A stretch of 64,000 nt of DNA from Salinivibrio kushneri (GTDB lineage: Bacteria > Pseudomonadota > Gammaproteobacteria > Enterobacterales > Vibrionaceae): the NCBI RefSeq assembly GCF_005280275.1, contig NZ_CP040021.1, forward strand, positions 2,691,001 through 2,755,000, in the 5' to 3' direction. The position numbers were made by a program, and so were the translations under genes. The notes beneath the pieces were generated by a model. It searched no databases, was not told the DNA's origin, and worked only from the letters and a program-made list of their open reading frames with translations. Below, piece after piece: positions 5,297-52,209 of the stretch. Every line of letters starts with the position of its first letter. Within the stretch, counting starts at the first letter, position 1.

Positions 5297-5343
5297 TGGT
5301 TGTTCCTTCCTATCGCGAGAATGTGCAGCGACGTGCTGCGTCT

Positions 5344-5549
5344 GTGGGCTGTATTCGGACTTAAGAGCATGGCTTTCGCCGCCTACTGCTAACGACTTCC
5401 CATCGCATACTATTTATCAGCATTGGCGACAGTGTCTGACCTTGGGTCGGGTTAGGGTCGTTCTCTTACACCGCTGCGCGTCAGTTGCGGACTCTCACCG
5501 CATTCCTGTGATCCGTCCTATTGGGTATAGACAGAGCACTGACCCACGC
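5344..5549 (-). promoter_or_regulatory. Cobalamin riboswitch upstream of btuB
   Basis: On the minus strand the leader contains the family signature segments in order. First comes a GCGGTGAGAGTCCGCAACTG block (complement of about 5483-5502) running into ACGCGCAGCGGT. A B12-box-like region GACACTGTCGCCAATG follows, then GATGGGAAGTCG and the 3' element AGTCCGAATACAGCCCAC. GTGGG (about 5544-5548) can pair with CCCAC (5344-5348) to close P1. In this family adenosylcobalamin binding usually hides the ribosome site. The aptamer ends about 48 nt before the btuB ATG, which fits translational control. Confidence 0.92.
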
Positions 5550-5684
5550 AGGGATAGTAGCCGTCTAGATGGATATTGTCCATTGATAACCTTATTGAAT
5601 AAGGGAGAATCGTGAGCAAGGGTGGACATAGCTGGGGATTTGTCTAAAATCTGCGCTCATTTTCCAATCGCTGAGGCAGCCATC

Positions 5685-46951: not shown

Positions 46952-47087
46952 GTGCGCATTATAACCAAGCCCTTAGCCAAAATTAAAGTAATTGCTCTAA
47001 TTTTTTTGAAAAGAATGGAATAATGCGAGTCAGCAAACGATAAAAAGGCAGTGGCAGGGTGACGCCTCGCGATGACGATTAGCCAAT

Positions 47088-47193
47088 AAAAAAAGCCCCA
47101 GTCAGTATCCTGACTGGGGCTGCTGAATCAGCCAAATCCAATAACGTGAAACAAAAGGTCTGAAAGATAGAACATCTTACCTCTGTACCCTAC
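47088..47193 (-). ncRNA. spf: Spot 42 small RNA
   Basis: The minus strand begins GTAGGGTACAGAGGTAAGAT, continues with the GTTCTATCTTTCAGACC region and ends in the terminator GCCCCAGTCAGGATACTGACTGGGGC plus T-run (described in parts: stem GCCCCAGTCA/TGACTGGGGC). This is nearly identical to E. coli Spot 42, which represses many carbon-use genes with Hfq. Located between polA and engB, its usual position. Confidence 0.97.
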
Positions 47194-47201
47194 GCTGTTA
47201 A

Positions 47202-47216
47202 CTGTATATCAATCAC
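47202..47216 (-). promoter_or_regulatory. Possible CRP-like site upstream of spf
   Basis: GTGATTGATATACAG on the minus strand resembles GTGA-N6-TCAC, with a poor right half (TACA). CRP represses spf in E. coli, but this match is weak and overlaps the likely -10. Confidence 0.3.
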
Positions 47217-50577: not shown

Positions 50578-51228
50578 ATGAAAAAGGTGGCTGTGATCTT
50601 ATCTGGCTGCGGCGTGTTTGATGGTGCCGAGATCCAAGAAACTGTGTTATCCCTACTGGCCCTCGAGCAAAACGATGCTCAATGGCAGTGCTTTGCCCCA
50701 GATATCGATCAGCACCATGTTATTAACCATCGTACTGGCGAAGCGATGAGCGAAACGCGTAATGTGCTCACTGAAGCCAGCCGCATTGTGCGTGGGGAGA
50801 TACTTCCGCTAACTGATTTGAACGCCGATGACTTCGACGCCCTACTGGTTCCTGGCGGTTTTGGTGCCGCGAAAAACTTATCGGACTTTGCTTACAATGG
50901 CGATCCGGTTCAGGTACACCAAGATATGTTTGCAGTGTGTCAGGCCTTTGCCCGTTCCGAGAAGCCTGCTGGCTATATGTGTATCGCCCCGATCATGATC
51001 CCGCAGATCTACCCAAAAGGCGTCAAAGGCACCATTGGTAATGAGCCAGACATCGCCGCCGCCTTTAACCGTATGGGCGGTGAGCATATCGAATGTCCAG
51101 TATCGGATTATGTGTTAGACCAACGCCACCATCTGCTATCCACACCGGCCTATATGCTGGCAACATCTGTGTCGGACGCCGCGAGTGGCATCAATCGGAT
51201 GGTGAAAAAACTGGTTGAGCTGGCCTAA
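50578..51228 (+). CDS. elbB: Isoprenoid biosynthesis glyoxalase ElbB
   Basis: DJ-1/PfpI-family protein, 216 aa from the ATG at 50578 (AAGGAG upstream; E. coli 217). The upstream ORF extension to 50452 has no site. Nucleophile-elbow region AGYMCIAP holds the conserved Cys. Glyoxalase III-like activity is reported for E. coli ElbB; its link to isoprenoid formation is older and indirect. Confidence 0.93.
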   Translation: MKKVAVILSGCGVFDGAEIQETVLSLLALEQNDAQWQCFAPDIDQHHVINHRTGEAMSETRNVLTEASRIVRGEILPLTDLNADDFDALLVPGGFGAAKNLSDFAYNGDPVQVHQDMFAVCQAFARSEKPAGYMCIAPIMIPQIYPKGVKGTIGNEPDIAAAFNRMGGEHIECPVSDYVLDQRHHLLSTPAYMLATSVSDAASGINRMVKKLVELA

Positions 51229-51250
51229 GCACACAATAGGAAGACACAAA

Positions 51251-51401
51251 GAAAAAAGCGACGCCGAGAGCGGCGTCGCTGTAACAGGTGAGCGCAAAAA
51301 CAAAGCTGTTTTAATAACAGTTTGCTGGCCCCAATACACTGGAAGCAATGTGAGCAATGTCGTGCCTTCAGCGCTGAGCATGTGGGCTTTGCCCTGAAGA
51401 C
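51251..51401 (-). ncRNA. ryhB: RyhB sRNA, downstream copy
   Basis: The minus strand carries the core GCACGACATTGCTCACATTG and its continuation CTTCCAGTG (51333-51366), as in E. coli RyhB. It ends in the terminator AGCGACGCCG/CGGCGTCGCT plus T-run (51251-51280). Promoter TTGAAA, 17 bp, TATTGT. It folds a 5' hairpin (CTTCAG/CTGAAG). Length is about 150 nt, longer than E. coli RyhB (90 nt), with sequence outside the core differing from the other copy. Hfq-dependent iron-sparing riboregulator; in vibrios it lies near here. Confidence 0.92.
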
Positions 51402-51409
51402 AAGTTAAC

Positions 51410-51428
51410 AATAACCATTCTCATTAGC
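51410..51428 (-). promoter_or_regulatory. Fur box of downstream ryhB copy
   Basis: Minus strand GCTAATGAGAATGGTTATT, similar to the 19-bp Fur consensus, overlapping the promoter between -35 and -10. Fe-Fur should block transcription here. Confidence 0.75.
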
Positions 51429-51562
51429 ATTTTCAACAAATAATTTCGATGCTTTTTGATTTGTTGCTCTTGTGCTCAGACTCTCTCGCTGTCATCAAAC
51501 TGTCATTGCATCCACCGCCATAATGCCAACATCCATCGTTCGAAAAGCCAGCACCCAGAAAA

Positions 51563-51707
51563 GAAAAAAGCGACACCCCGAAAGGTGTCGCCTAGCAAAA
51601 ATGGGCTAACTTAATCACTGTCTGATAAGCGCCCCGCTAATACACTGGAAGCAATGTGAGCAATGTCGTGCCTTCAGGGTTAAGCATGTGGGCTTGACCC
51701 TGAGTGC
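51563..51707 (-). ncRNA. ryhB: RyhB sRNA, upstream copy
   Basis: Second copy with the same 34-nt core at 51639-51672 (minus). It ends in its own terminator, GCGACACC/GGTGTCGC plus T-run (51564-51591). Promoter TTGATA, 18 bp, TATTAT. Its 5' hairpin uses CAGGGT/ACCCTG, while the other copy uses CTTCAG/CTGAAG. The spacer between the copies (51434-51560) shows no gene. Two RyhB genes in tandem with separate promoters are unusual. Confidence 0.92.
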
Positions 51708-51715
51708 GAGTTAAT

Positions 51716-51734
51716 AATAACCATTCTCATTATC
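51716..51734 (-). promoter_or_regulatory. Fur box of upstream ryhB copy
   Basis: Minus strand GATAATGAGAATGGTTATT matches 15 of 19 positions of GATAATGATAATCATTATC and overlaps the promoter. Both copies should be de-repressed under iron limitation. Confidence 0.82.
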
Positions 51735-51774
51735 GTTTATCAAGAAAAAAATATGCTTATTTTCCACTCACTGT

Positions 51775-52209
51775 TCATTTATTGATCTGCTTCTCAAAAT
51801 AAAGTCGATAATCGGCAGGCTGACCTTTTTGCTCCAATGCCACCATCTGATAGCCATGACGCACCAGCATGCACACCATCGCGGTAAAGCGGTTGCGTGA
51901 TTTGACCGCAAGTGTTTGATAGCCAGAAGCCGCTACCCAAGCTTCTTGAGCCTGTAGCAGCGCTTTCGCTACCCCTTGATCTCGCGCCGCTTTGCTCACC
52001 CCGCCCAGCCAGCTATAAAACTGGGTCTCACTGGTGGCATAGCCTATTTTAGCCCCCACAGGCTCACCGTTTTGATACGCGACCAATACCAATGCCGTGC
52101 GTCCGGCTAATCGCGCGCGGCATTGCTCCAAGGATACTCCTGCATCCAACTCGGGCACGCTGTTAAGTACCGTTACCGCCTCCTCTAAGTACCCAGCACG
52201 AATTTCCAT
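51775..52209 (-). CDS. GNAT-family N-acetyltransferase
   Basis: A 144-aa single-domain GNAT protein. The acetyl-CoA loop region DQGVAKALLQAQEAW (about 84-98) and the strand TLAVKSRNRFTAMVCMLVRHGY (about 106-127) fit the fold. Substrate unknown. Its promoter side faces yhhQ; it points toward the ryhB copies. Confidence 0.85.
   Translation of the reverse strand: MEIRAGYLEEAVTVLNSVPELDAGVSLEQCRARLAGRTALVLVAYQNGEPVGAKIGYATSETQFYSWLGGVSKAARDQGVAKALLQAQEAWVAASGYQTLAVKSRNRFTAMVCMLVRHGYQMVALEQKGQPADYRLYFEKQINK

Follow-up and report, generated by a model that had tools for sequence, protein, structure and literature searches.

A 64-kb stretch of Salinivibrio kushneri DNA (64,000 nucleotides of contig NZ_CP040021.1, hereafter the window) carries two small-RNA-like units in tandem on its minus strand, copy A at 51743-51563 and copy B at 51436-51252, and their sequence makes it likely that both are functional, Fur-repressed RyhBs. 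RyhB is a textbook regulator, a small RNA (sRNA) which many bacteria use to save iron. The two complete minus-strand units were found where the original prediction had placed them, and each has, as it had claimed, a promoter-like site, a Fur-like box and a terminator-like stem of its own; the predicted range of 51251-51735 took in both units and cut off the -35 hexamer of copy A (51743-51738). The locus comprises the following parts, given in the direction of transcription of the pair:

51775-52209, minus strand: GNAT-type acetyltransferase gene, upstream neighbour (Pfam GNAT domains above cut-off, NCBIfam PRK03624 below its cut-off)
51738-51743, minus strand: copy A, -35-like hexamer TTGATA (consensus scan)
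51714-51719, minus strand: copy A, -10-like hexamer TATTAT (consensus scan)
51713-51731, minus strand: copy A, Fur-like box (15/18 against the 19-bp Fur consensus)
51674-51703, minus strand: copy A, predicted 5' hairpin
51639-51677, minus strand: copy A, 39-nt block identical in copy B, containing the RyhB core
51596-51638, minus strand: copy A, linker, unlike that of copy B
51563-51593, minus strand: copy A, terminator stem and U run (stem 51593-51568, 11 pairs)
51443-51461, minus strand: copy B, place of a second, upstream Fur-like box (7/8 Salinivibrio genomes; unrecognisable in the window genome)
51431-51436, minus strand: copy B, -35-like hexamer TTGAAA (consensus scan)
51408-51413, minus strand: copy B, -10-like hexamer TATTGT (consensus scan)
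51407-51425, minus strand: copy B, Fur-like box (14/18 against the 19-bp Fur consensus)
51363-51402, minus strand: copy B, predicted 5' hairpin
51333-51371, minus strand: copy B, 39-nt block with the RyhB core, same as in copy A
51283-51332, minus strand: copy B, linker
51252-51280, minus strand: copy B, terminator stem and U run (stem 51280-51257, 10 pairs)
50578-51228, plus strand: elbB, neighbour convergent with the pair (NF008747, 317 bits, cut-off 180)

Identity of the two units

Both promoter-like sites are sigma-70-like, TTGATA-18-TATTAT in copy A (51743-51714, 10/12) and TTGAAA-17-TATTGT in copy B (51436-51408, 9/12), and the predicted folding energies of the terminators are -17.4 kcal/mol for copy A and -19.0 kcal/mol for copy B. 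In the consensus scan neither the number of promoters (2 vs 1.7 expected from shuffled sequence) nor that of terminators (2 vs 1.2) was significant, so that the meaning of these sites rests on their position and conservation. We regard the Fur-like boxes as stronger evidence than these counts. They were scored against a 19-bp Fur consensus with a maximum of 18, which is a count of consensus matches and not a measure of binding. The main boxes, situated over the -10 elements, reach 15/18 in copy A and 14/18 in copy B and rank first and joint second among the positions of the window, one other position (13430) also reaching 14/18. For V. vulnificus, a passage of PMC8764119 reports binding of Fur-iron upstream of ryhB.

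The core had been predicted to be an identical stretch of 34 nt; the identity holds, while the exact block is longer, namely 39 nt, and is the source of all 25-mers present twice on the plus strand of the window. Copies A and B diverge most clearly in the linker between core and terminator. The 5' hairpins, also described as diverged, differ less than this implied, as both copies keep the stem and AGCCCACATGCT in the window genome. A terminator after the core, as expected of RyhB, follows in both units in the form of 11- and 10-pair stems with U runs.

An Rfam scan with an E-value threshold matched RF00057 to both copies across model positions 1-67 of 67, with 51.5 bits for copy B (E 1.6e-8) and 50.4 bits for copy A (E 2.9e-8). 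The covariance-model search suggested along with the original prediction therefore finds both copies at about 1e-8, but neither attains the Rfam gathering score of 55 bits, and a default scan of the window misses both. A scan of 18 family loci gave 4 at or above the gathering score, every one from genus g12; of the 14 others, 9 belong to single-copy genomes. Because the default cut-off misses RyhB at most of the Vibrionaceae loci scanned, we class the two copies as RyhB homologues that score under this cut-off. No further strong RF00057 match (next best E 0.18) and no other match to the 32-nt core within 3 mismatches was detected in the 3.44-Mb, two-contig genome of the window, and none of the 7 Rfam matches with E up to 10 in the interval 51100-51900 was to a PrrF model. 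Other features on the minus strand of the window are a Spot 42 sRNA near polA (47087-47203), a cobalamin riboswitch (5330-5558) and a partial 16S rRNA (1-1476).

Conservation, targets and the use of two copies

Both 27-nt core patterns occur without mismatch in all eight Salinivibrio genomes. Mean pairwise identity among these genomes is 97.2% in the promoter, 100% in the core and 97.6% in the terminator of copy A, and 95.9%, 100% and 94.2% in the respective parts of copy B; the hairpins show 79.6% (A) and 91.1% (B) and the linkers 94.9% (A) and 90.3% (B), with a background of 82.5% in the A-B spacer and 53.5% in the gap to elbB. The contrast is clear for promoter and core and modest for the linker and terminator of copy B, because part of the spacer (0.91-0.93 in windows near 51516-51476) and the elbB coding sequence (about 0.8-0.9) are also conserved. 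Covariation is nearly absent in the consensus folds (1/46 pairs and 0/45 pairs), and in an alignment of 21 single-copy relatives the flanks are too variable for a covariance model.

The place of the GNAT gene holds other sequence in 3/8 Salinivibrio genomes. In two genomes, G006 and G007 (L073, L074), the gene has seemingly been lost upstream of copy A with its last ~40 bases beside the promoter kept, and this kept end may be needed by the copy A promoter. In G001 a group II intron match (RF00029, 45.3 bits) is located just upstream of copy A (L068:1576-1648).

Judged by these patterns, neither copy looks like a pseudogene. A silent or decaying copy in the window species is most unlikely: copy loss does occur, for example in Photobacterium genome G085, where copy A is without its 5' part and half of its core, and copy B of the window has the weaker promoter score and has lost its upstream box, but promoter and terminator are conserved in both copies and the cores are free of mismatches throughout the genus genomes.

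Regarding partners and targets, the window's genome encodes Hfq, two Fur-family proteins and SdhC, as well as two proteins with an Fe/Mn SOD domain, of which we take the one of 194 aa to be SodB. Core-only duplexes were used in place of whole-length RNA duplexes, with 500 shuffled cores and 39 control ORFs as controls. The duplex of the core with sdhC has -30.9 kcal/mol, a value as low being found in 0/500 shuffled cores and 0/39 control ORFs, with a longest perfect complement of 5 nt and with the ORF finder's GTG as the sdhC start. The core also has a perfect complement of 9 nt across the start codon of sodB, a length that 1/39 control ORFs also reaches; the sodB duplex of -25.5 kcal/mol is not exceptional, being matched by 10/500 shuffled cores and 4/39 control ORFs. 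Passages of PMC5511505 name sodB, sdhC, gltB1 and fumA as RyhB targets in V. cholerae, judge sdhC to be probably not a RyhB target in Aliivibrio salmonicida, and give a 43.7-fold increase of ryhB in an A. salmonicida fur mutant. In the same species, after 15 minutes of iron limitation, ryhB rose 4.6-fold with sodB and sdhC remaining without detectable change, according to a passage of PMC4324432.

We propose that two complete RyhB sRNAs arose here through a tandem duplication in an ancestor of the sampled Salinivibrio genomes. When iron is plentiful, Fe-Fur would be expected on the box over each -10 element and both copies would be silenced; when iron is low, both would be transcribed as separate RNAs of ~150 nt. 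These presumably use Hfq, and through their identical core they would pair with the beginning of mRNAs for iron proteins, sodB and sdhC among them, and repress these mRNAs. Two copies would most likely raise RyhB output, while the separate promoters, together with the second box of copy B in most sampled species, may set different iron levels for switching on. The simplest advantage of the second copy would be dosage, which is for us about an even call. The core does not differ between the two copies, nor from that of many relatives with one RyhB, in agreement with shared targets and dosage, and the diverged linkers and the upstream box on copy B and not on copy A in 7/8 genomes would leave room for different roles.

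One such role is a graded iron response, in which a two-box copy B would be more tightly repressed than a one-box copy A and the two would answer to different iron thresholds. The upstream box of copy B scores 13-14/18 in 7/8 Salinivibrio genomes, compared with 12/18 in 2/8 and 9-10 in 6/8 at the corresponding position of copy A, and in the 6 Photobacterium pairs the upstream box of copy B (15-16) is higher every time than that of copy A (13-14). In the window genome, however, the copy B position scores 10/18 and the box is unrecognisable, so that the graded response is inapplicable there in this form; g4 and g11 likewise lack the box (0/16 units, scores 7-11), so its loss is common, and consensus matching is not binding. 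We consider a graded response unlikely. A second Fur-like box of at least 13/18, ~35 bp upstream of the main one, is present in 19/23 single-copy units of the genus Photobacterium, in 2/2 of g10, in 1/1 each of g3, g8 and g13, and in 1/13 of g2. It is equally doubtful whether tandem RyhB evolved repeatedly as a graded switch, with copy A serving mild and the two-box copy B severe shortage, and with box loss, as in the window species, retuning it.

Alternatively, the copies could have split their target sets, with common targets of the core and copy-specific ones reached through the 5' hairpin or the linker. The linkers differ between the copies yet are conserved within each (94.9% and 90.3%), the copy A hairpin loop is replaced in G006 and G007, and for the Salmonella pair a passage of the review PMC4211561 suggests that 5'-end divergence may separate the targets. 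The pairing core, on the other hand, is identical in both copies and the hairpins have AGCCCACATGCT in common in the window genome, and we regard split targets as improbable. Read-through of the copy A terminator could furthermore yield a third, long RNA that would have a sequence and control of its own, comparable to PrrH, the 325-nt read-through RNA across the 95-nt gap at P. aeruginosa prrF (passage of PMC2851614). The geometry would allow this, as the copies have the same orientation with 127 bp between the copy A terminator and the copy B -35, and part of the spacer is conserved; still, the two terminators are predicted to be strong, and copies A and B each carry a separate promoter-like site; we consider such an RNA very unlikely.

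Occurrence and origin of tandem pairs

The tandem pair is present in 8/8 Salinivibrio genomes, the window's included, with the cores 306-320 bp apart (306 bp in the window). A core within 3 mismatches was found in 303/329 family genomes and tandem pairs in 15/329 (8/8 in g1, 6/52 in g9 and 1/1 in g6), single copies being the rule among the family genomes searched. A further 11 family genomes (G045, G077, G087, G141, G216, G217, G218, G227, G276, G311 and G313) have at least two core matches, located on different contigs or far apart. A wide scan for pairs of exact 22-nt cores at a distance of 266-326 bp, which covered 84,980 species with one genome each and is blind to other spacings and to diverged cores, returned 11 stretches: 6 from Salinivibrio, 4 from Photobacterium (halotolerans, arenosum, galatheae, salinisoli) and 1 from Vibrio sp. 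Of7-15.

Photobacterium genome G085 (L127) is single by core search, yet a shortened copy A lies ~290 bases upstream of its copy B core. Here two Fur-like boxes are followed directly by the second half of the core and then a terminator, the 5' part being deleted, and the remnant resembles a minimal sRNA or a decaying copy. Among 44 single-copy loci G085 alone had another Fur-like box pair in the upstream 700 bases. A GNAT gene also precedes the G085 pair and the single-copy RyhB of one g11 genome, and elbB comes after the G085 pair.

The history of the copies was followed in a tree of 106 units, built on a short alignment, with weak support for many inner branches and a bootstrap that had not converged. 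Clade support is 96/91 for Salinivibrio A, 96/96 for Salinivibrio B and 100/100 for Photobacterium A. Identity between Salinivibrio genomes is 91.7% for A with A and 93.3% for B with B, and A and B are no more alike when taken from one genome (68.1%) than when taken from different genomes (68.2%), for which reason a recent duplication was rejected. A chance finding or assembly artefact was rejected as well, given the pair in 8/8 genus genomes with separate A and B clades. Tandem duplication, as originally proposed, is thus the right description on the basis of the Rfam matches, the parts and the phylogeny, and the comparison with related genomes that had been suggested for dating places it, from the clades and identities, at a time when the 8 sampled Salinivibrio genomes had not yet diverged.

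At least two origins of tandem RyhB are probable, because a 99/98 branch unites Salinivibrio A, Salinivibrio B, g4 and g11 to the exclusion of both Photobacterium copies, and this is incompatible with a single A/B duplication that preceded the two genera. A tandem pair already present in the common ancestor of Salinivibrio and Photobacterium is contradicted by this branch and not favoured. Strict groupings were rejected for Salinivibrio B with Photobacterium B (p-AU 0.0043), Salinivibrio A with Photobacterium A (0.0028) and all B copies (6.2e-05); the 99/98 branch is the better evidence, since an old duplication with scattered losses need not give those groups. Gene conversion between neighbouring copies could mimic the two-origin tree. 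The duplication in Salinivibrio may be older than the separation of this genus from g4 and g11: Salinivibrio A with g4 and g11 has p-AU 0.524 and a likelihood slightly above that of the free tree, Salinivibrio B with g4 and g11 has p-AU 0.482, and the grouping of Salinivibrio A with B has a support of 88/47 only. Bearing on a third origin, copies A and B of Vibrio sp. Of7-15 grouped together give p-AU 0.163; bearing on a single Photobacterium origin, Photobacterium A with B gives p-AU 0.263, and with G085 included they group in the tree at 28/65. Doubling of RyhB may thus have been favoured more than once.

RyhB cores were also observed on Vibrio conjugative plasmids (MOBF, MPF_F), namely V. 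tasmaniensis p2 and a V. tapetis plasmid, where they lie between traD and traI with Fur-like boxes of 15-17/18. The plasmid or plasmid-type cores are L171 (core at 2702), L174 (2631), L140, L142, L144 and L146; similar extra copies in the g12 genomes G227 and G311 were seen by eye beside TraD-/relaxase-like ORFs (ORFs read in L140 and L142). Two of four plasmid stretches examined (L172 of V. harveyi, L173 of V. parahaemolyticus) have no core within 2 mismatches, and a literature search found, among the matches listed, nothing on an iron-sparing sRNA in a plasmid transfer region. Two extra 9-nt CACATTGCT repeats are present in the RyhB core of copy B of the chromosomal tandem in Photobacterium G059 (L078) and of the plasmid-type L146 and L174, so that the pairing seed is expanded by repeats. 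Nine IMG/VR stretches (L162-L170) contain an exact RyhB core of 23 nt, in five cases ~225 bases away from where the stretch starts; these cores are possibly host flank or a RyhB paralogue adjoining prophages.

Comparison with known RyhB and PrrF systems

Literature searches on RyhB duplication and Vibrionaceae yielded, among the matches listed, no report of a tandem true RyhB, and the pair is a new arrangement of a well-known regulator. The Salinivibrio and Photobacterium pairs provide natural replicates for asking why duplicated sRNAs persist, be it for dosage, a graded response or new targets. With the RyhB of V. cholerae, Aliivibrio salmonicida and Escherichia coli (RF00057) the units have in common the core, a Fur-like promoter box, the terminator and complementarity to sodB and sdhC (for targets, passages of PMC5511505); they differ in that two copies are adjacent here and that their scores fall below the gathering cut-off.

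Pairs of true RyhB paralogues whose core is conserved while the ends have diverged are likewise known, as RyhB1/RyhB2 in Yersinia (also in a passage of PMC10342277) and as RfrA/RfrB (RyhB-1/-2) in Salmonella, but these pairs are distal on the chromosome, as stated in a passage of PMC4211561, in contrast to the window copies with their 306 bp from core to core. The closest likeness in layout is to PrrF1/PrrF2 of P. aeruginosa, which are also tandem, same-strand, Fur-controlled iron-sparing sRNAs close together (passages of PMC4211561 and PMC2851614). The 2014 review PMC4211561 describes, in the passage concerned, RyhB-like sRNAs such as PrrF as not significantly homologous to RyhB, and PrrF1 and PrrF2 are nearly identical, whereas copies A and B of the window are 68% alike.
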